Shown here in pieces: positions 15,725 through 61,319 of a stretch of DNA of 64,000 nucleotides. The translations under genes and the position numbers were made by a program. Every line of letters begins with the position of its first letter. The stretch's first letter is position 1. The notes beneath the pieces are model-generated. The model was not told where the DNA came from, made no database searches, and saw only the letters and a program-made list of their open reading frames with translations. Origin of the DNA: Brachybacterium paraconglomeratum (lineage in GTDB: Bacteria; Actinomycetota; Actinomycetes; Actinomycetales; Dermabacteraceae); contig NZ_ML133851.1 in the NCBI RefSeq assembly GCF_003994255.1, forward strand, positions 806,001 to 870,000. Direction: 5' to 3'.

Positions 15725-17239
15725 GTGCTGATCAGACAGGTGCGGCCGTTCGACGCCGCCACGGGCGGAGCCCCTGACGCGCCGGTGGACCTGCGGATCC
15801 GCGACGGCGTGATCGCCGAGCTCGCCGCGGGGCTGTCCCCCGCCCCGGGCGAGGAAGTCCTCGACGGGGGCGGGGCGCTCGCGATCCCCGGGCTGTGGGA
15901 CCAGCACGTCCACTCCGGGCAGCTCGCCCAGGCGCATGCCCGGCTGGACACCTCCGGGGCGGGCAGCGTGGGCGTGATCCTCGAGCTGGTGCGGGCCGAG
16001 CTCGCCTCCCGCCGCGAGACCGCCGTCGATCCGGTGCAGGCGCTGATCGGCTTCGGCCACCGCCTGGTGGACTTCGCCGTGCAGCCCACGGTGCCGATGC
16101 TGGACGAGGCGACCGGCTCGGTCCCGACGGTGCTGATCGGCGGGGACGCGCACCATGCCTGGATGAACTCGGCGGCGCTGCGGGCGCTGGGCCTGCCGCC
16201 CCGTGACGGGATCGTCGCGGAGGAGGAGTGGTTCGTGCTGGCCCCGCGCCTGCCGGAGCTGCCGGGGGTCGCCGATGCGGTGGCGACGGGCTCGGCGATG
16301 ATGCAGCGCCAGGCGCTGCAGCGCGGGGTGGTGGGCCTGGTGGACATGGAGTGGGGCCGGCCCTGGGAGGTCTGGCCGCAGCGGTCGCCGCGGATGCGGA
16401 TCCGCACCGCCGTCTACCCCGAGGAGCTCGCCGCCGCGCCCGGCCCCACGGGCACACCGCTCGAGGAGCGGGGCCTGGTGACGATGGGGCCGCTGAAGGT
16501 GATCGTCGACGGGGCGCTCGGCTCGCACTCCGCGTACACCCGCGAGACGTACACCGACGGTCACGGCTACGCGGGCCGGGGCGTGCTGAGCGTGGGCCCG
16601 GAGGCGCTGCGCGACGCGCTCGTGCGGGCGCGGGCGCAGGGCCTCACCGCGGCGGTGCACGCGATCGGGGACGCCGCCGCGCAGGTCGCTCTCGCGGCGA
16701 TCCGTGCCGTCGGCCTCGGTGCGCGGATCGAGCACGCGCAGATGCTCACCGACGACGACATCGCCGCCATGGCCGCCCTCGGCGTGACCGCGTCCGTGCA
16801 GCCCGCACATCTGCTGGACGACCGCGACGCCACCGAGGCGGTCTGGCCCGGCCACGGAGGGCAGGCCTTCCGGCTGCGGGACCTGCTGACGGCGGGGGTG
16901 CCGCTCGCCCTGGGCTCCGACGCCCCGGTCGCGCCCCTGGATCCGTGGCTGGCGATGGCGGCGGCGGTGCACCGCAGCGCCGACGAGCGCCCGGGCTGGC
17001 ACCCCGAGCAGCAGCTCCAGCCGCGCGAGGCGCTCGCCGCCTCGACCGACGGGATCACCTCCCTGCGACCCGGCGGCGTCGGCGACGTGGTGCTGCTGGA
17101 GGGCGACCCCTTCGCCGACGTGCCCCTGGGGGCCGACGGGCTGATGGTCGAGGCCGCGGCCCGGGAGGCCGCGGAACGGCTGCGGGAGACGCACGTGCTC
17201 GAGACCGTCGTGGCCGGCGTCCCGTCCATCGGCCGCTGA
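15725..17239 (+). CDS. YtcJ-like amidohydrolase family protein
   Basis: A 504-aa metal-dependent hydrolase. Residues expected for the YtcJ / N-substituted-formamide-deformylase branch are visible: the N-terminal metal pair in DQHVHSGQ, the bridging Lys in GPLKVIVDGALGS, HAIGDAA, IEHAQMLTDDDI and the C-terminal metal Asp in LGSDAPVAPLDPWLAM. The GTG start is favoured because TACTCT (15713-15718) ends 6 nt before it, giving a leaderless start. Probably cytosolic, as no signal peptide is seen. It would cleave a C-N bond in an amide or cyclic amide; the actual substrate is unknown. Confidence 0.87.
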   Translation: MLIRQVRPFDAATGGAPDAPVDLRIRDGVIAELAAGLSPAPGEEVLDGGGALAIPGLWDQHVHSGQLAQAHARLDTSGAGSVGVILELVRAELASRRETAVDPVQALIGFGHRLVDFAVQPTVPMLDEATGSVPTVLIGGDAHHAWMNSAALRALGLPPRDGIVAEEEWFVLAPRLPELPGVADAVATGSAMMQRQALQRGVVGLVDMEWGRPWEVWPQRSPRMRIRTAVYPEELAAAPGPTGTPLEERGLVTMGPLKVIVDGALGSHSAYTRETYTDGHGYAGRGVLSVGPEALRDALVRARAQGLTAAVHAIGDAAAQVALAAIRAVGLGARIEHAQMLTDDDIAAMAALGVTASVQPAHLLDDRDATEAVWPGHGGQAFRLRDLLTAGVPLALGSDAPVAPLDPWLAMAAAVHRSADERPGWHPEQQLQPREALAASTDGITSLRPGGVGDVVLLEGDPFADVPLGADGLMVEAAAREAAERLRETHVLETVVAGVPSIGR

Positions 17240-17266
17240 CGGCGTGGGCAGCGCCTCCCCCGATCG

Positions 17267-17298
17267 ACTATGCACGGTAGTAATGGATGGGGCATAGT
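17267..17298 (+). promoter_or_regulatory. BlaI-type operator and promoter, plus-strand operon
   Basis: ACTATgcacgGTAGT (17267-17281) is a one-mismatch dyad of the type ACTAT-N5-ATAGT. A further ATAGT half-site (17294-17298) overlaps the likely -10 box CATAGT (17293-17298), which ends 6 nt before the ATG at 17305. The same dyad occurs twice in perfect form upstream of the DsbA-like gene at 22222-22254. The linked BlaI-family repressor (17862-18275) is the natural candidate ligand. A repressor here would cover the promoter core and block transcription. Confidence 0.72.
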
Positions 17299-17304
17299 GG
17301 GGCC

Positions 17305-17865
17305 ATGCCGCAGATCTCTCGATGGCCCCGACGCCTCGGGGAGACGCTCCGCCTCGCCGCCGCCGCGCTGCGCGCCTGGGGGCCCCGGCAGGTGCTCACC
17401 GCCGTGGTCGCCGGGACCGCCGTCGCGGTCGTGATGGGCGTGGCCACGGTGCTGATCCCGAACTCGCTCTTCTCCCGCGACATCCCCACCCTCGCCTGGA
17501 ACTACCCCGTCTGGATTCTCACCTCCGCGCTGATGGGCCTGCTCATCGCCACCTACGTGGCCCCTGCGGAGGGTCGGGGCTCCCGGGAGGCGAGCTCGGT
17601 CGAGGTCGGTGAGCGCCGGGACGCGCGCACCGGCACCGCCGCCGGGATGCTGGCCTGGTTCGCGGTCGGCTGCCCGGTGTGCAACAAGCTCGCGCTGCTC
17701 GCCCTCGGGTACGGCGGGGCGCTGACCTGGTTCGCGCCGGCGCAGCCCTTCCTGGCCGCCCTCGCCCTGGCACTCGCACTGATCGCCGTGGTCTCCCGCC
17801 TGCGGGGCCAGGTCGCCTGCCCGCTGCCCGCCGCGGCCCGTTCCCGCCGGGCGGCCGCCCTGTGA
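17305..17865 (+). CDS. Membrane protein with intramembrane CPVC motif, first gene of BlaI-type operon
   Basis: A 186-aa protein with about 4-5 hydrophobic segments. The notable feature is GCPVCNKLALLALGYGGAL near residues 119-137: a CPxC motif at the membrane edge, suggesting a thiol-redox or metal-handling role. I do not recognise a characterised family. An ATG 18 nt upstream is possible, but the -10 position (17293-17298) favours a leaderless start at 17305. Its TGA overlaps the GTG of the BlaI-like repressor gene. Co-regulation with DsbA- and CcdA-like proteins through shared operators supports an envelope thiol function; this is inference. Confidence 0.68.
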   Translation: MPQISRWPRRLGETLRLAAAALRAWGPRQVLTAVVAGTAVAVVMGVATVLIPNSLFSRDIPTLAWNYPVWILTSALMGLLIATYVAPAEGRGSREASSVEVGERRDARTGTAAGMLAWFAVGCPVCNKLALLALGYGGALTWFAPAQPFLAALALALALIAVVSRLRGQVACPLPAAARSRRAAAL

Positions 17866-18275
17866 GCGGCGCCGAGGGCTCCCACCCCTTCGACCAGGTG
17901 CGGCTGGGGCCGCTGGAGCAGCAGGTGATGGAGCAGCTGTGGGCCCACGACGAGCGGACGATCCGTGAGCTGATCACCGGCCTGGGCGGCCATCACGCCT
18001 ACACCACGATCGCCACGGTGCTCACGAACCTGGAGCGCAAGGACCTGGTGACCGCGAGCCGGAAGGGCCGTTCCGTGCGCTACCGGCCGCGCCATCCGCG
18101 CTCCGAGCACGCGGCACGGCTGATGGAGCAGGCGCTGTCGAGCAGCAACGACCGCGGCGCCTCGATCCTCCACTTCGTCCGCAGCATGGACGAGCGCGAG
18201 ACGGCGCTGCTGCGCCGCTACCTCGACGACATGGACGCCGGCGGCACCCCGGGGTCCGGATCGGCAGCGCCGTGA
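17862..18275 (+). CDS. BlaI/MecI/CopY-family transcriptional repressor
   Basis: A 137-aa winged-helix repressor. The N-terminal domain is LGPLEQQVMEQLWAHDERTI, then YTTIATVLTNLERKDLVTA (recognition helix) and the wing KGRSVRYRPR. A C-terminal dimerisation helix contains SMDERETALLRRYLDD. Family members are inactivated by proteolysis through an M56 protease, which is encoded immediately downstream with a 4-bp overlap. The GTG start is set by overlap with the preceding stop. Candidate operators (ACTAT-N5-ATAGT) lie at 17267 and 22222. Confidence 0.92.
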   Translation: MSGAEGSHPFDQVRLGPLEQQVMEQLWAHDERTIRELITGLGGHHAYTTIATVLTNLERKDLVTASRKGRSVRYRPRHPRSEHAARLMEQALSSSNDRGASILHFVRSMDERETALLRRYLDDMDAGGTPGSGSAAP

Positions 18276-19285
18276 CCGTCGGCCTGTTCGTCCTTTTCGC
18301 GCTCGCGCTCGTCGTCCTCGCGCTGGGCGGTCGCCGTCTGGTGCGCTGGAGCACCCCCGTGCTGGTGCGCGCGCCGCGCCTGGCCTCCGCGCTGCTGCTC
18401 GGCACGCTGGCGGTGTGGTCCGTCGCGGCGGTGGTGCTCAGCGTGGCCCTGGCGGGCCTGGCCCGCGGGCCGCAGCTGCTCGCCGGCGCCGCCGCCGATG
18501 TCTGCCAGCGCTGCCTCTCCGCCGCGAGCCCGTTCTCCACCGGCGGCCCGATCCACCTGCCGGTGCCGATGGCCGTGCTGGTGATGCTCCCGCTGGCCGG
18601 GACGGCGCTGATGGGTGCCCTCGCCGTGCGCGGTCTGCTCCGCCGGGCGGCGTCGAGCCGGTCGGTCCTCGCCCAGGTCCGGACGACGGGTTCGCGCACC
18701 GTCGTCGCCGGGCACCCGGTGCTGCTCGTCCCGGACCGGGCACCGCTCGCGTTCGCGCTGCCGCGCCGCCACGGGGGCATCGTGATCTCCCGCGGCCTGC
18801 TGGACTCGCTTCCGTCGCGCGAGCTCCGCGCGGTCCTCGCGCACGAGCAGGCGCATCTGGCCCAGCACCATCACACGGTGCTCGCCGTGCTGGCCGCGCT
18901 GACGGGCCCGCTGCGGATCATCCCCCTGTTCGACGCGGTCGCGACCACGGTGCCGCATCTGCTGGAGATCGCCGCGGATGACGTCTCGCGCCATCGCAGC
19001 GGCACGCCGGCCCTGGCCAGTGCGCTGCTGCGGCTCGCCGAGGTCGGCGCCGCCGCGCCGTCGGCGCCCCTCGCGACGGCGCCGGGCGCCCTGCTGCACG
19101 CGACCGGACCGGCCGGCAGCGGCCCGGATCGGATCGGGCACCTGGTCTCCCCCGCCGCCGCGCGTTCGGCGCTGGTGCCGGCCACCACCCTCGCCGCCCT
19201 GCTCGCCGTGCTGGCCCTCTCCGCTCTCACCCTCGTCGCGCCGTACGCGGCGCTGCTGCTGGACGGCTGCGCCGTGCCGCTGTGA
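18272..19285 (+). CDS. M56-family membrane metallopeptidase (BlaR1-like, no sensor domain)
   Basis: A 337-aa integral membrane zinc protease with hydrophobic segments near the N-terminus, around residue 100 and at the C-terminus. The catalytic motif is AHEQAHLAQHHH (HExxH, near residue 190), followed by a more distal LEIAADDVSRH that may supply the third zinc ligand. Unlike BlaR1/MecR1 it lacks the extracellular penicillin-binding domain, so it would need another signal or partner. The GTG overlaps the repressor stop by 4 bp. Presumed role: cleave the BlaI-like repressor upon envelope stress. Confidence 0.88.
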   Translation: MTVGLFVLFALALVVLALGGRRLVRWSTPVLVRAPRLASALLLGTLAVWSVAAVVLSVALAGLARGPQLLAGAAADVCQRCLSAASPFSTGGPIHLPVPMAVLVMLPLAGTALMGALAVRGLLRRAASSRSVLAQVRTTGSRTVVAGHPVLLVPDRAPLAFALPRRHGGIVISRGLLDSLPSRELRAVLAHEQAHLAQHHHTVLAVLAALTGPLRIIPLFDAVATTVPHLLEIAADDVSRHRSGTPALASALLRLAEVGAAAPSAPLATAPGALLHATGPAGSGPDRIGHLVSPAAARSALVPATTLAALLAVLALSALTLVAPYAALLLDGCAVPL

Positions 19286-19288
19286 GCA

Positions 19289-19324
19289 TGCGGGGACCGG
19301 GCCGCTCAGCCGGTCATCCCCGCA
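19289..19324. terminator. Hairpin between convergent BlaI-module operons
   Basis: TGCGGGGACCGG (19289-19300) pairs with CCGGT (19310-19314) and CCCCGCA (19318-19324), with a 3-nt bulge and a 9-nt loop. It spans the 28-bp gap between the M56 gene (ends 19285) and the lipoprotein gene (ends 19314) and includes the lipoprotein's stop codon. Likely a bidirectional terminator. Confidence 0.6.
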
Positions 19325-20528
19325 GGCCGTACTCCTCGTCGAACTCGGTGGTGACCAGGAAGTGCCGCTCCTGGACCCGCACGGCGGCCGCGGAGTCCGC
19401 CGAGAACCGCTGGGGCACGGCGAGCGGCCCCTCCTGGTCCACGTCGTAGGGCTGGACCATCACGCCGCGGTTCGTGTCGAGCACCACGAGCGTGCCCTCC
19501 TCGGGGCGGACAGCGTAGGCCAGGCGCTCCCCGGCGCTGAGCAGCTGGAGCGGCTCGGAGTCCTCGTGGGTCCACTTCTCGGTGCCGTCGTCCTCGAGTC
19601 CGCGCACGGTCGTGCCGGAGACGACGACGGTGGTCTCGAGGACGTGATCGCGGGCGACGACGTTCGCGTCACGGGCGATCACGCGCCCGTCGGCGAGGTC
19701 GACGACCGCGCCGTGGGAGTCCTGGTCGGTGACCACGGCGAAGGAGGTGGTGGGGTCGATGTCGCCGAGCAGCCGTGCCCGGGACGGTTCGATGCCGGCG
19801 GGCAGCGGGATGCTCCAGAGCTCCTCGCCGTCGGCGCCGCTCGCCCGCAGCTCGGAGCCCGCCAGGTGCACGACCGTGCCCAGGTGCTCGCCGAGGATGC
19901 GGCCGCCGGCGAGGTCCTCCTCCCGCAGCAGCGGCTCCCCGGTGGCGCCGGACAGCGCCGTGCGCGGGCCTCCCTCGCCCATCGGCTGATCGGTCGGTGC
20001 CGCGTGGACCAGGCCCGGGGCGGCCTGCGGGCCGAGCGCCCCGACCGGTCCCCACAGCGGCTCGGCCGTGCGCAGGTCGTAGCCGGTGAGCGTCGTCGCG
20101 GGGAGCTCGTCCCCGGTGGCCTCGGCGAGGTCGGCGAGCACGGCCACCGGTGCGCCCTGCGGGCCCCGGGTGAGCACGAACCCGGTGCAGCTGAGCGGGC
20201 GGTCCGCCCGCCACAGCACGGTGCCGTCCTGGTCGACGGCGAGGAACCGCAGATGGGCCTCCTCCTCGCGGTAGCCGAGGAAGATGCCGTCCAGCTGGAG
20301 CGGGACGGCGGTCCAGCCGGGATCGACGACGATCATCGGGGTCATCTCGAGCGGGAGCCGCAGCTCGGTGTGCTCGACCACGTCGGCGCGCTCGCCCACC
20401 TGCACGGGTTCGGTGTGCTCGACCGGGGGCGGGGCCGTCGGTGTCTCGGGCCCGCTCTCCTCCGGGCCGCATGCGGCGAGGCCGAGCAGGCCCAGGGGCA
20501 GCGCCGCGAGGACGTCCCGGCGCCTCAT
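19314..20528 (-). CDS. Lipoprotein with PQQ-like beta-propeller repeats
   Basis: A 404-aa exported lipoprotein. The start MRRRDVLAALPLG was chosen because it gives a signal with lipobox LLGLAAC, and its ATG overlaps the CcdA-like stop by 4 bp. The rest is beta-rich with repeated elements such as VDQDGTVLWRADRP, SGADGEELWSIPLP and EDDGTEKWTHEDSE, the pattern of PQQ-type propeller blades (BamB-like). No enzyme signature is visible. As the third gene after DsbA-like and CcdA-like, it may dock substrates or redox partners on the outer face of the membrane. Confidence 0.75.
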   Translation of the reverse strand: MRRRDVLAALPLGLLGLAACGPEESGPETPTAPPPVEHTEPVQVGERADVVEHTELRLPLEMTPMIVVDPGWTAVPLQLDGIFLGYREEEAHLRFLAVDQDGTVLWRADRPLSCTGFVLTRGPQGAPVAVLADLAEATGDELPATTLTGYDLRTAEPLWGPVGALGPQAAPGLVHAAPTDQPMGEGGPRTALSGATGEPLLREEDLAGGRILGEHLGTVVHLAGSELRASGADGEELWSIPLPAGIEPSRARLLGDIDPTTSFAVVTDQDSHGAVVDLADGRVIARDANVVARDHVLETTVVVSGTTVRGLEDDGTEKWTHEDSEPLQLLSAGERLAYAVRPEEGTLVVLDTNRGVMVQPYDVDQEGPLAVPQRFSADSAAAVRVQERHFLVTTEFDEEYGLRG

Positions 20529-21403
20529 GGCCGACGCCCCGGGGTGAGGGTGATGGTGGCAGGGGCGTCCTCCGCCTTCCGTCGACGGCGGTCCCACCGC
20601 CACCACAGCACGAGGGCCAGGATGCCCAGACCGGCGATCACGGCGACCTGCACGAGGGGGTCGTCGAGCCCGGCGCTGCTCGACTGCCAGCGGGCGAGGG
20701 TGCTGGTGGGCACGAGCGACGGCAGGCTGACCAGGCCGTTGGTGGCCCAGAACAGGATGCCGAGCGCGATGATCACGAGCCCCGTGACGAAGGTCGTGGT
20801 GTGCAGGCGCCGCCCCAGCAGCGTGAACTCGCGTCCGCGCAGCCTGCTGCGCCCCCGCTCCCCCAGCCGGTTCCAGACCGCCGCGAGGAGGGTCAGCGGC
20901 ACCACCATGCCGGCGCCGTAGACGGCCAGCAGGATCCCGGCCAGGAACATGCTCCCCTGCCCCATGGCGAGGGTGAGCACGGCGCCGAGGATCGGCCCCG
21001 CGCAGAACCCGGCGATCCCGCCGACGGCTCCGAGCACGAAGCTGCGGGGTAGCCCGGAGCCGCGGGTGGAGCGCCGCTGGAGCCGGTCGAAGCCCGGCAG
21101 CACCCGGCCGAGGTCGAAGCCGAGGCCCAGGGCGTGCAGCGCGCCGAGCAGCACCAGCACCGCGGAGGTGAGCCCGATCAGCAGGGTGCGGTGCCCGGCC
21201 ACGAGCGCACCGAGCGCCCCCACACCGATGCCGAGCGGGACCAGCGTCACCGCGAGGCCGAGGTAGAACACCAGCGCGTGCGGGAGCAGCGCCGCCCGCG
21301 AGGTCACGGTGGAGGCGAAGAATCCCGGCAGCAGGAGCGCCCCGCAGGGGCTGAGCAGTGCGAGCGCCCCGCCGAGGAAGGCGGTGAGCAGTCCGACCTC
21401 CAT
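20525..21403 (-). CDS. CcdA/DsbD-like transmembrane thiol reductant carrier
   Basis: A 292-aa membrane protein with six or more helices. Two Cys-containing family motifs are visible: LLSPCGALLLPGFFAS in the first helix (Cys near residue 19) and GGIAGFCAGPILGAVL in the fourth (Cys near residue 135). These are the CcdA redox pair that shuttles electrons from cytosolic thioredoxin to the envelope. The start at 21403 follows the DsbA-like stop by one base and begins at the first membrane helix; a longer in-frame ORF upstream is Arg/Ser/Pro-rich shadow. The C-terminus has an extra membrane helix and a basic tail. Confidence 0.88.
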   Translation of the reverse strand: MEVGLLTAFLGGALALLSPCGALLLPGFFASTVTSRAALLPHALVFYLGLAVTLVPLGIGVGALGALVAGHRTLLIGLTSAVLVLLGALHALGLGFDLGRVLPGFDRLQRRSTRGSGLPRSFVLGAVGGIAGFCAGPILGAVLTLAMGQGSMFLAGILLAVYGAGMVVPLTLLAAVWNRLGERGRSRLRGREFTLLGRRLHTTTFVTGLVIIALGILFWATNGLVSLPSLVPTSTLARWQSSSAGLDDPLVQVAVIAGLGILALVLWWRWDRRRRKAEDAPATITLTPGRRP

Positions 21404-21404
21404 C

Positions 21405-22184
21405 TCAGCCCTCGCTCTCGGCCAGCGCCTCGTCCACCATCTGAGTGAACACCTCGGTGGGCTGCGCGCCGACGGTCGGTGTGCCGCCGATGATGAAGGC
21501 GGGGGTGGACATCGCGCCGAGCTCGATGCCCTGCTGGGCGTTCTCGGCGATCGTGGTCTCGACCTCCTCGGAGTCCATGTCGGCCTCGAACTGCTCGGCA
21601 TCCAGCCCGAGCTCCTCGGCGAGCGCGACCAGGGACTCGCGGTCGAGCTCGCCGGAGGAGCGGATCTCGCCGTCCTCGAAGAGCCGGGCGTGGTACTCGG
21701 CGTGCTTCCCCTGCATAGCCGCCGCGAGGCTCGCGCGGGCGGCGCGTTCGGAGTCCTCGCCGTAGATGTTCACGTCCCGGTACTCGATCCGCAGCTCGCC
21801 GCGCTCGACGTACTCCCGCAGCTCCGGCAGGGTCTCGTCGGACCACTTCGCGCAGTAGGGGCACTGGTAGTCCGAGAACACCACCAGCACGACCGGGGCG
21901 TCGGCCGGTCCCTCGGCGAGCAGGTCGTCGGGGTCCCTGCCCTCCTCGGAGCTGAGATCGGGAGCGGCCACCGACTCCGGGTGCTCGACGGCCGCCGGAG
22001 CGTCGGCGCTCGGGGTGCCGGTCGCACCGCCCTGAGCGGGCGGCTCCGACGGGTCCTGCTGCATCCAGAACACCCCGATGATCAGGGCGGAGACGGCGAC
22101 CACGATCCCCAGCGGGACCGCCCAGCGACGTAGGACGCCGCCGAGTGCGGACGGCGTCGTTTCGGATCGGTCGGCGCGGGCCAT
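21405..22184 (-). CDS. DsbA-like membrane-anchored thiol:disulfide oxidoreductase
   Basis: A 259-aa protein with a short cytoplasmic N-terminus, one membrane anchor (WAVPLGIVVAVSALIIGVFW) and an extracellular thioredoxin-fold domain. The active site is FSDYQCPYCAKWSD (CPYC, near residue 108) and the cis-Pro loop is MSTPAFIIGG. The fold is the Thioredoxin_4 / DsbA group common in actinobacteria. ATG 22184 has GGAGG four bases upstream; an earlier in-frame GTG at 22223 would lie inside the operator. It heads the minus-strand operon DsbA-like, CcdA-like, lipoprotein, under a tandem BlaI-type operator. Confidence 0.9.
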   Translation of the reverse strand: MARADRSETTPSALGGVLRRWAVPLGIVVAVSALIIGVFWMQQDPSEPPAQGGATGTPSADAPAAVEHPESVAAPDLSSEEGRDPDDLLAEGPADAPVVLVVFSDYQCPYCAKWSDETLPELREYVERGELRIEYRDVNIYGEDSERAARASLAAAMQGKHAEYHARLFEDGEIRSSGELDRESLVALAEELGLDAEQFEADMDSEEVETTIAENAQQGIELGAMSTPAFIIGGTPTVGAQPTEVFTQMVDEALAESEG

Positions 22185-22221
22185 GGTGCCTCCGGTCGGG
22201 TCGGGAGAACGGTCGAGCGCC

Positions 22222-22254
22222 ACTATTCCACATAGTTACTATGGGTGATAGTAA
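22222..22254 (-). promoter_or_regulatory. Tandem perfect BlaI-type dyads upstream of the DsbA-like operon
   Basis: Two perfect dyads lie in tandem: ACTATtccacATAGT (22222-22236) and TTACTATgggtgATAGTAA (22236-22254). Both share the core ACTAT-N5-ATAGT and their centres are 16 bp apart, about one and a half helical turns. They sit just upstream of the DsbA-like start (22184). The same core with one mismatch precedes the BlaI-like operon at 17267. This is strong sequence evidence for one regulator acting at both promoters. Confidence 0.8.
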
Positions 22255-22312
22255 TCAGTGGGGTGATCCGTGCCGCCCCCGCGGAGGTGCGCGGACGCGG
22301 TCAGCGGGCCCG

Positions 22313-23149
22313 TCAGCCCTTCATGCCCGAGTGGGCGAGCCCCTCGATCACGCGGCGCTGCAGCACGATGAACAGGATCATCAGCGGCAGCATCGCCATG
22401 AAGCTCGCCGCCATCATCACCGGGTAGTCGGTGGTGAACTGGCCCTGGAGGCTGGACAGCCCCACCGCGAGGGTGGTGCGGTCGTCGTAGGTCGCGACGA
22501 TCAGCGGCCACATCAGGTCGTTCCAGGAGGCGAGCGCCGTGAGGATCGCGACCGCGCTCAGCGCCGGGCCGGACAGCGGGAACATGATCCGCCAGAAGGT
22601 CTGCCAGGGGCTGGCGCCGTCGAGCCGTGCCGCCTCCTCGAGGGAGCGCGGCATGCCCAGGTAGTGCTGACGCATCAGGAAGGTGCCGAAGGCGCTGAAG
22701 ATGCCCGGTGCCGCGATCCCGGCGACCGTGTTGAGCCAGCCCAGCTCCTGGATGATGTCGTACTGCGGGATGAGGTAGATCTGGTACGGGACCATCAGGA
22801 TCGACAGCACCAGCGCGAACAGCAGGTTCTTCCCCCGGAACTCCATCCGGGCGAAGGCGTATCCGGCCAGCGCGCACAGCAGCAGCTGGCCGATCACGCG
22901 TGCGCCGGTCACCGCCGCCGTGTTCAGGAACTGGTTCCAGAACGGCACCTGCTCGAACACCGCGGGATAGTTCCCCCACTGCGGCTCGGCCGGCAGCCAG
23001 CTCGGCGGGACCGAGGTGACCTCGGCCTGCGTGGACAGCGACATGCTCAGCTGCCACAGGAACGGGAAGACCATCACCAGCCCGCCGAGCAGGAGCACCA
23101 GGTGGGTGCCCCAGCGGGGCCGCGCGGTCCGGGTGCGGCGCTCACTCAT
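22313..23149 (-). CDS. Carbohydrate ABC transporter permease (MalG-like)
   Basis: A 278-aa inner-membrane permease with six helices. The ABC-coupling EAA loop is visible as EEAARLDGASPWQTFWRIMF, and the N-terminus shows the typical first helix LVLLLGGLVMVFPFLWQL. Third gene of a binding protein-permease-permease operon, overlapping the previous permease by 8 bp. No ATPase gene is nearby; actinobacterial sugar importers often share an MsiK-type ATPase, which is the likely arrangement here. Substrate is probably an oligosaccharide but cannot be named. Confidence 0.9.
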   Translation of the reverse strand: MSERRTRTARPRWGTHLVLLLGGLVMVFPFLWQLSMSLSTQAEVTSVPPSWLPAEPQWGNYPAVFEQVPFWNQFLNTAAVTGARVIGQLLLCALAGYAFARMEFRGKNLLFALVLSILMVPYQIYLIPQYDIIQELGWLNTVAGIAAPGIFSAFGTFLMRQHYLGMPRSLEEAARLDGASPWQTFWRIMFPLSGPALSAVAILTALASWNDLMWPLIVATYDDRTTLAVGLSSLQGQFTTDYPVMMAASFMAMLPLMILFIVLQRRVIEGLAHSGMKG

Positions 23150-59981: not shown

Positions 59982-61319
59982 TCAGTACAGGCGGTAGCGC
60001 TTGGTGGTGACCTCGAAGCGCCTCGCCTCGCGGCGCCAGGCCGCGACGATCGCCTCGGGGGATTCGCCGTCCTCGAGCATCGCCCGGGTGCGCTTGGTGC
60101 CGGTGAGCTTGTCGATCCAGCACACGTGGTCCTCGGTGCGGCAGTCATCGCCCTCGCGCCAGTCGACCTCCTCCACCGTGCGCAGCAGCGCGGCGATCAC
60201 GTGGATGCCGGTGCGGACGGGCTCGTAGGCGGCGGCATCGGTGACGTGCAGCTGCAGGCCGCCGCAGAAGACGCCCGCGTGCTTGGAGGTGGTGGGGGTG
60301 GCGAACATCGGCCGGTAGAGCACGCCGGGCAGCTCGGCGGCGCGGAGGGTCTCGAGGAGCTGGTCGACCTGGGCCTCGGTGATGAAGGGGGCGCCGAACC
60401 AGAGGAAGGGTGTGGTGGTGCCGCGGCCCTCGGAGATGTTCAGCGACTCGATCAGTCCCGTGCCGGCGTAGACCACGGCGGTGTCCGGGGTGGGGATGTT
60501 CGGGGAGGGCAGCACCCAGGGCAGCTCCTGGACGGGCGGCTCCTCGGGGTCGTAGCCGCTCATCTCGACCACCTCGAGGGTGACCTCGCCGTTCAGGAAC
60601 TCGCCGTTGAACAGGCGGGCGAGCTCCCCGACGGTGAGGCCGTGGGTCTGGGGGATCTCGCGCAGCCCCACGAAGGAGGACAGCTCCGGCTCGAGCACGA
60701 ATCCCTCGATGTCGGTGCCCAGCGGGTTCGGCCGGTCCAGCACCACGAACCGCTTGTCGTTCTCGCCCGCGGCCTGCATCGCGTAGTAGAGGGTCCAGAT
60801 ATAGGTGTAGAAGCGGGCGCCGATGTCCTGGATGTCGAAGACGAGCACGTCGACGTCGGCGAGCATCTCCGGGGTGGGCTTCTGGGTCGCGCCGTACAGG
60901 GAGCGGACCGGCAGTCCGGTCTTCTCGTCGATGTAGTCGCCGACGGCGCCTCCGGCGGGCTCCGCGCCGCGCACCCCGTGCTCGGGCCCGAACAAGGCGG
61001 TCATGGTGAAGCCGCCGGTCCCCTGCGCCTCGACCAGGAGGTCGATCGTGGAGCGCAGCGCGCGGTCCGCGCCGGTGGGATTCGTGATCAGGCCGACGCG
61101 CTGGTCGCGCAGGGTCTCGAGGGCTGCGGGATCGAGGAGGTTCTCGACGCCCAGGCGGAAGTCCCCGTCGACCCTCTTCCCCCGGGAGGGGGCGGCCTGG
61201 GCGGAGGCGGCGCCGGCGAGGACGGCGCCGGCGGGGAGCGCGCCGAGGGAGGCGAGCACGCGGCGTCGCCCCGGTCGGGCCGACTGCGCGGCGGGATGTG
61301 GCGAGGGTGCAGGGTTCAC
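59982..61319 (-). CDS. namZ: Exported exo-beta-N-acetylmuramidase (DUF1343 / NamZ)
   Basis: A 445-aa exported enzyme of the DUF1343 family, whose B. subtilis member NamZ removes non-reducing MurNAc. A Tat-like signal (PGRRRVLASLGALPAGAVLA) precedes DUF1343 features: VGLITNPTGADRALRSTIDL, LFGPEHGVRGAEPAG, SLYGATQKPTPEMLADVD, VFDIQDIGARFYTYIWT and RPNPLGTDIEGF. The GTG start has GGAGG. Adjacent NagZ removes GlcNAc, so the two would degrade wall chains alternately from the non-reducing end. A -35 TTGTGA / -10 TAGCGT promoter lies at 61371-61399. Confidence 0.88.
   Translation of the reverse strand: MNPAPSPHPAAQSARPGRRRVLASLGALPAGAVLAGAASAQAAPSRGKRVDGDFRLGVENLLDPAALETLRDQRVGLITNPTGADRALRSTIDLLVEAQGTGGFTMTALFGPEHGVRGAEPAGGAVGDYIDEKTGLPVRSLYGATQKPTPEMLADVDVLVFDIQDIGARFYTYIWTLYYAMQAAGENDKRFVVLDRPNPLGTDIEGFVLEPELSSFVGLREIPQTHGLTVGELARLFNGEFLNGEVTLEVVEMSGYDPEEPPVQELPWVLPSPNIPTPDTAVVYAGTGLIESLNISEGRGTTTPFLWFGAPFITEAQVDQLLETLRAAELPGVLYRPMFATPTTSKHAGVFCGGLQLHVTDAAAYEPVRTGIHVIAALLRTVEEVDWREGDDCRTEDHVCWIDKLTGTKRTRAMLEDGESPEAIVAAWRREARRFEVTTKRYRLY

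Follow-up and report, generated by a model that had tools for sequence, protein, structure and literature searches.

The locus described here lies in a 64,000 nucleotide (nt) stretch of Brachybacterium paraconglomeratum (contig NZ_ML133851.1, positions 806,001 to 870,000; hereafter the window) and encodes a BlaI-family repressor, a BlaR1/M56-like protease and Dsb proteins behind copies of the dyad ACTAT-N5-ATAGT. The closest described systems are BlaR1-BlaI (MecR1-MecI) of Staphylococcus aureus, BlaI (Rv1846c)-BlaR (Rv1845c) of Mycobacterium tuberculosis and the CopY/CopR repressors. In S. aureus, BlaR1 carries the motifs H201ExxH and E242xxxD and has an N-out, C-out topology; its signalling starts on exclusion of the extracellular stretch EL1 (residues 56-96) from the sensor, and Phe102 of BlaI is the P1' residue of its cleavage (PMC9834060). 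The window locus shares with this system a winged-helix BlaI with phenylalanine at the known cleavage position, a membrane gluzincin with HExxH and ExxxD motifs for which BlaR1 tops the VIA-align structural list, and the presence of two operators (PMC7253601). However, its protease has no penicillin-binding sensor domain and carries a CxxC in the EL1-equivalent stretch, the operator is ACTAT-N5-ATAGT instead of TACA/TGTA, and the predicted targets are Dsb genes.

The M. tuberculosis pair contains the closest solved repressor by sequence (2g9w), and its protease also lacks a beta-lactam sensor domain, mycobacterial sensing being stated as an open question (PMC5473688). This BlaI is reported to act on blaC, ATP synthase, cytochrome bd and sigC, and dsbA-ccdA is not among the targets named (PMC5473688, PMC8265638). 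CopY/CopR belong to the same repressor superfamily and also have two operators, whose outer bases YK-AC and GT-MR recur in the extended dyad reported below, although the operator spacing differs; the trigger named is a metal rather than a protease, copper being sensed by a C-terminal CXC which the window BlaI lacks (PMC7253601). The first-pass annotation of the window, made from its letters, was aware of no described BlaI/M56 circuit driving a DsbA-CcdA operon, and our search agrees, as no paper on such an operon was found among the open-licence PMC papers. We propose that the locus is a BlaR1/BlaI-type proteolytic switch that takes the extracytoplasmic thiol state as its input and induces Dsb genes, a reading to which we give a probability of roughly 0.68.

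Operator dyads and gene block

The first-pass annotation had described a convergent BlaI-M56-Dsb block with one dyad pattern at both outward promoters. The gene layout at 17305-22184 bears this out, two convergent operons being confirmed by reading of the open reading frames, and all three dyads lie where they had been placed:

17267..17281, no strand: operator dyad O1 at the promoter of the membrane gene-blaI-M56 operon (ACTATGCACGGTAGT, one mismatch)
17293..17298, + strand: CATAGT half-site, register 17 relative to O1; probable -10 box, followed after a gap of 6 nt by the ATG at 17305
17305..17865, + strand: small CxxC membrane protein with C172 and a CPVC motif (C123, C126), all invariant; matches no Pfam or NCBIfam family
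17862..18275, + strand: BlaI-family repressor, winged helix, no cysteine (PF03965, 85.5 bits against a cut-off of 22.6)
18272..19285, + strand: BlaR1/M56-like membrane metalloprotease without sensor domain, 337 amino acids (H191ExxH195, E232xxxD236, CxxC 78-81, C333)
19314..20528, - strand: beta-propeller (PQQ_2/BamB-like) protein (PF13360) with a lipobox-like N terminus read from the sequence
20525..21403, - strand: CcdA/DsbD-TM thiol electron conduit (PF02683), C21 and C135 conserved
21405..22184, - strand: DsbA-like thioredoxin (PF13462 and PF01323), active site CPYC (C108, C111), N-terminal membrane anchor read from the sequence
22222..22236, no strand: proximal operator dyad of the dsbA promoter (ACTATTCCACATAGT, perfect); its minus-strand ATAGT is the probable -10 box
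22238..22252, no strand: distal operator dyad of the dsbA promoter, in tandem at 16 bp (ACTATGGGTGATAGT, perfect)

The genes left unnamed by the first-pass annotation are that of the CxxC membrane protein, first in the left operon, and that of the propeller, last in the right operon. Each gene of the left operon overlaps the next by GTGA, and 28 nt separate the 3' ends of the two operons (19285 to 19314).

These three dyads are the only sites with at most one mismatch in the window, and none of 100 window shuffles gave any. Across the whole 3.78 Mb genome the exact dyad occurs only at 22222 and 22238, and allowing one mismatch adds only 17267. A further 25 genome sites have exactly two mismatches, but the pattern written backwards gives 119 sites with up to two, so that the two-mismatch sites are background. 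A chance origin of the dyads was rejected on the basis of the shuffles, this rarity in the genome and the control patterns in related loci given below. Of the two promoters, only that of dsbA yielded a repeat in the repeat finder, namely the tandem pair. The classical BlaI operator TACA-N2-TGTA was likewise rejected for the window, where it has no exact match and a single one-mismatch site at 60800; exact copies number one across the 80 named loci introduced below.

At both promoters the right half, ATAGT, of the promoter-proximal site stands at a -10-like position (GGCATAGTGG, GGAATAGTGG), including the CATAGT at 17293-17298 that had been read as a half-site over the left -10. A scan of 17100-22400 for sigma-70 consensus promoters and terminators found none, and the ATAGT halves are therefore probable -10 boxes by comparison only. 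If they do double as -10 boxes, repression by occlusion is plausible. As CATAGT ends so close to the ATG, the left operon is probably transcribed as a leaderless message; among relatives, an in-frame start codon follows an ATAGT by 4-8 nt in 35 of 65 (most commonly by 6), and 30 of 65 have none.

Distribution of the dyad in Brachybacterium

A BlaI relative at 58% identity or more was found in 11 of 38 Brachybacterium genomes, and the exact dyad is present in the same 11. The dsbA orthologue (at least 56% identity) is more widespread, occurring in 21 genomes, which are related and are not 21 independent cases. All 11 dsbA genes from BlaI-bearing genomes have a perfect dyad within 1.5 kb, and in all ten from genomes without a BlaI orthologue the best site has three or four mismatches. 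In these sequences the dyad tracks this BlaI, not DsbA.

In the ten Brachybacterium loci compared (L039-L048), the dyad is present in 9/9 that hold the promoter of the CxxC membrane gene (with one mismatch in G025) and in 8/8 that hold the dsbA promoter. For two loci on broken contigs dsbA was found on other contigs, each time with a dyad. This co-occurrence, with the dyad at both promoters, supports the earlier suggestion of a two-operon module under a single regulator, which is likely to be BlaI. The first-pass annotation had also considered that such dyads might be frequent at unrelated loci, but of the 24 exact sites in Brachybacterium 23 belong to the promoters of the CxxC membrane gene or dsbA.

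Distribution in other actinobacteria

The order was scanned in 396 genomes, and the exact dyad occurs somewhere in the genome in 26 of the 30 with the best BlaI matches (at least 114 bits, a cut chosen after the list was seen) against 36 of the other 366. This search also covered 24 BlaI loci from outside the genus, and each has a dyad within 1.5 kb, exact in 20 and otherwise with one mismatch. A scan of named genomes gave 115 confirmed relatives, of which the best 80 were kept (the 80 named loci, 1.39 Mb). These contain 140 exact dyads in 76 loci, whereas the backwards pattern, three other dyads and spacers of 0-4 and 6-11 gave no sites and the swapped control ATAGT-N5-ACTAT gave four, in four loci. 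Of the four loci without an exact dyad, L151 and L207 are cut by contig ends at or within the CxxC membrane gene, L172 has three one-mismatch sites and L179 has two, near dsbA. Dyad-bearing loci include those of Nocardia, Gordonia, Dietzia, Rhodococcus, Microbacterium, Brevibacterium, Isoptericola, Amycolatopsis and Nonomuraea.

The majority consensus of 118 distinct sites of relatives is wider, TYK-ACTAT-S-N3-S-ATAGT-MRA, and the window sites keep its core, not all flanking bases. Close exact tandem pairs are spaced by 16 or 17 bp in 44 of 50 cases in the named loci. By inspection, dsbA-ccdA in most other named loci is divergent from the blaI operon, the two sharing an operator region with one to three dyads; the window, with its convergent layout, represents a local variant. 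L182 and L201 have all their genes in one orientation behind the dyad. The companions in the module are BlaI, the M56-like protease, the CxxC membrane protein, DsbA, CcdA and often the propeller lipoprotein. Sizes of the gene clusters around the 80 loci are lower bounds, as the reading-frame rule missed genes and the BlaI cluster itself shows only 35 loci. This is a real, conserved regulatory module.

The BlaI repressor

The nearest solved structure to the window BlaI by sequence was 2g9w (E-value 4e-18), which we take to be the M. tuberculosis BlaI. In the BlaI tree, built from 122 alignment columns and with many forks open (eight near-copy loci were left out and L053 is missing), one branch with support 99/99 holds 104 of 124 rows. 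Within this branch 97 of 104 rows have a dyad of no more than one mismatch at a distance of up to 1.5 kb, compared with one of 20 outside it. The seven rows without a near site are L140, L182 and L201, which have an exact dyad at dsbA beyond that distance, L179, whose one-mismatch sites at dsbA are also beyond it, the truncated L151 and L207, and L049 (genome G016), a real exception. Outside the branch, L240 has one one-mismatch site and L243 an exact dyad about 3 kb from blaI.

Position 56, in the DNA-binding domain, is asparagine in 78 of the 80 named BlaI and arginine in 18 of 22 others, a set that includes L250, which belongs to the module. A profile alignment pairs F105 with Phe102 of the S. 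aureus BlaI; position 105 is phenylalanine in all 80 named and also in all 22 other BlaI, making it a family trait. The 80 loci were retrieved with peptide patterns, AYTTIATVL among them, and the conservation of those letters is hence partly due to selection; neither N56 nor F105 forms part of a pattern. From these comparisons BlaI very probably binds the dyads.

The window BlaI has no cysteine and is thus unlikely to be a thiol sensor itself; a thiol signal must enter elsewhere. Membership of the CopY/TcrY copper repressors was rejected, with an equivalog score of 28.7 against 121.95 and, without cysteine, no C-terminal CXC.

The protease and its invariant cysteines

The gluzincin motifs HExxH and ExxxD of the window protease are in BlaR1 spacing, and H191, E192, H195, E232 and D236 are invariant in 54 protease rows. 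Pfam M56 matches 47 of 54 scanned members at an E-value of 0.01 or less (best 4.1e-10). The AlphaFold model has a predicted local distance difference test score (pLDDT) of 87 and a predicted template modelling score of 0.86. VIA-align places BlaR1 first (Z 11.5, root mean square deviation 5.1 over 224 residues, model residues 8-285 on BlaR1 3-291), with ZMPSTE24 following the BlaR1 rows at Z 10.5. The protein falls short of the NCBIfam HtpX (M48) equivalogs, the best model scoring 35.2 against 369, although Pfam M48 exceeds its cut-off. The protein ends seven residues after the last predicted helix, and Pfam scans of it found no penicillin-binding sensor domain.

Among 77 protease rows, C78 and C81 are present in 76/76 and C333 in 74/74 with a residue there. 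The stretch equivalent to EL1 would be about residues 64-98, its orientation taken by homology, and by analogy with BlaR1 all three cysteines are probably extracytoplasmic. As BlaI has none, the protease CxxC is the best candidate for thiol sensing. No CxxC precedes HExxH in 20 M56 proteins beside other BlaI lineages; this contrast set comprised 23 loci, several of them closely related, with 21 M56 frames (none in L052 and L250, L049 not counted among the 20, and the L248 frame beginning with an unlikely N-terminal stretch).

The genome of the window also has a second BlaI-M56 pair of another lineage (L034, L038, L053; G000:C11:12781-13110), with no dyad and no Dsb hits in the surrounding 16 kb and an M56 protein without CxxC.

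The CxxC membrane protein, DsbA and CcdA

In the membrane protein, C123 and C126 are conserved in 66/66 rows and C172 in 65/65. Its family is widespread and unnamed, with a GCPVCN motif and a third invariant cysteine. Comparison with PDB sequences gave no significant match (one row at E 2.5), nor did its model (pLDDT 76, modest confidence) give a clear structural match. The protein could be a sensor partner or a DsbA target. The CxxC of DsbA is retained in 80/80 rows with a residue there, and in CcdA C21 is found in 56/56 and C135 in 57/57. The right operon therefore has the marks of a DsbA-CcdA pathway: a CxxC thioredoxin fold by Pfam and a CcdA with two conserved membrane cysteines.

Proposed circuit and alternative explanations

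In the proposed circuit a BlaI dimer on ACTAT-N5-ATAGT would repress its own operon (CxxC membrane protein-BlaI-M56) and, in the same way, the dsbA-ccdA-propeller operon. The protease would have the membrane and protease architecture of BlaR1 minus the penicillin-binding domain, with the EL1-equivalent CxxC and the C-terminal cysteine as its sensor. Oxidation of these cysteines, or their occupation by reactive sulfur species or a thiophilic metal, would free the cytoplasmic active site; the protease would then cut BlaI before F105 and both operons would be induced, until DsbA and CcdA restored the thiol balance and the protease was switched off. Judged from the sequences, the protease most likely does cut BlaI, and the case for its cysteines as the sensor is slightly better than even. 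Extracytoplasmic thiol oxidation ranks first as the signal, with metal close behind and reactive sulfur third, although oxidation rather than metal is itself put at less than even odds.

The neighbour contexts of relatives disagree on the signal. In one alternative the circuit is the same, but the protease CxxC and C-terminal cysteine bind an extracellular thiophilic metal such as copper; the CxxC membrane protein and the Dsb operon would then protect or repair thiols under metal stress. One Rhodococcus plasmid has a relative of the CxxC membrane gene flanked on both sides by genes for heavy-metal P-type ATPases, the mercuric transporter model MerT matches 11 of 51 members of the membrane family, and CopY, a member of the repressor superfamily to which BlaI belongs, senses copper (PMC7253601). 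We regard this as possible but doubtful, since the MerT match is weak (best E 0.0064) and absent for the window protein, the Rhodococcus stretch has no annotated BlaI (the gene table being incomplete), the window BlaI has no cysteine for a CopY-type CXC and the window block holds no metal gene. Other neighbours point instead to reactive sulfur (sulfide or persulfide), in which case the module would serve sulfane-sulfur detoxification as its extracytoplasmic arm. On Arthrobacter and Microbacterium plasmids the module lies beside rhodanese, MBL-fold and TauE/SafE genes, which we take to handle sulfane sulfur, together with DsrE on the former and thioredoxin and a metal-sensitive regulator on the latter; such clusters occur in at least 6 to 12 of the 80 named loci. 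As several of these look like near-copies, leaving few independent cases, and such genes lie outside the window block, this signal is improbable. A Streptomyces plasmid has a membrane-protein relative with lipoprotein-processing genes and CcdA, and no BlaI annotated in its incomplete gene table. The window block itself contains no rhodanese, MBL-fold, TauE/SafE, heavy-metal ATPase or lipoprotein-processing genes.

That another regulator binds the dyad, with BlaI a mere neighbour, is very unlikely. Binding by BlaI is deduced from sequence, and in G014 dsbA keeps its dyad with blaI 8 kb away, but no dyad is found near dsbA in the ten genomes without a BlaI orthologue, the dyad also marks blaI's own operon, and the next commonest regulator recognised, CsoR-like, is in nine loci (a lower bound, from the 40 largest gene clusters of the 80 loci). 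Least credible of all is an ordinary beta-lactam resistance circuit as in Staphylococcus, even though the BlaI and M56-like families are both present and the M. tuberculosis BlaR, also without sensor domain, has been linked to control of BlaC (PMC5473688). A Pfam scan of the block proteins found no beta-lactamase or penicillin-binding family, the 337-residue protease has no sensor domain, and the window lacks the exact classical operator.

Several observations weigh against the thiol-responsive switch that we favour. With Pfam M56 the window protease reaches 18 bits (cut-off 31), and with M48 40.7 (cut-off 20.3), so that its name rests on motif, fold resemblance and partner. The VIA-align Z of 11.5 is below the value of about 13 advised for helical folds, and this protein is mostly helical; Foldseek found no match at E 0.001 or less, and ranked a zinc-dependent peptidase of the M48 family (3c37, E 0.025) before BlaR1 (E 0.064). 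The contrast proteases L240, L243 and L253, which the tree places nearest to the dyad clade, have cysteine in the approximate EL1 stretch without CxxC and a cysteine near the C terminus, and the protease cysteines may therefore predate the Dsb link. On the Arthrobacter plasmid BlaI has no M56 gene annotated beside it. Within Brachybacterium, the displaced blaI of G014 goes with a dyad at the dsbA promoter only and no CxxC membrane gene was found. G016 (L049) has BlaI and M56 relatives in the dyad clade, on a long branch, with no exact dyad in the genome and no Dsb neighbours; its M56 frame has no CxxC and an N terminus that looks incomplete. One exact genus site outside the module (G026:C201; L059 1293-1307) stands 25 nt before a gene, presumably for an LLM-class flavin oxidoreductase. 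Finally, the sign of the signal is conjectural, and the protease might have a metal as its ligand.

With the proteolytic thiol switch retained as the preferred reading, the module suggests how actinobacteria adjust their disulfide machinery. Its defined operator and target pathway, together with three invariant cysteines that are probably extracytoplasmic, open each component (sensor, protease, repressor, operator, output) to testing by point mutation. The extended dyad, of up to 21 bp, gives a handle for finding the regulon in each genome. There is just short of an even chance that the module represents a large actinobacterial class of sensor-domain-free BlaR1-like proteases, in which an extracytoplasmic dithiol loop senses redox (or metal) and signals across the membrane by cutting BlaI; bacteria would then have a direct transcriptional read-out of extracellular disulfide state, a one-step proteolytic alternative to two-component envelope redox sensing.

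Related islands and additional dyads

Six of the named loci (L157, L160, L161, L162, L164 and L166) have the same layout, near-equal identities and nearly identical dyad letters, as judged without full alignment, in hosts belonging to Microbacterium, Haematomicrobium, Cellulosimicrobium, Microlunatus and Thermocrispum. Identical BlaI segments are also found in Cellulosimicrobium L161 and Nocardia cyriacigeorgica L159. The set is probably a recently moved island, carrying in some cases rhodanese, MBL-fold, TauE/SafE and CsoR-like genes.

Tandem dyads also occur outside the core region. One in L161 (14289-14319) precedes a small protein that looks membrane-anchored, one in L146 (14053-14084) is near CsoR-like and AraC-like genes, named by eye, and one in L205 (13943-13974) precedes a second dsbA-propeller pair. 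These sites may mark extra members of the regulon.

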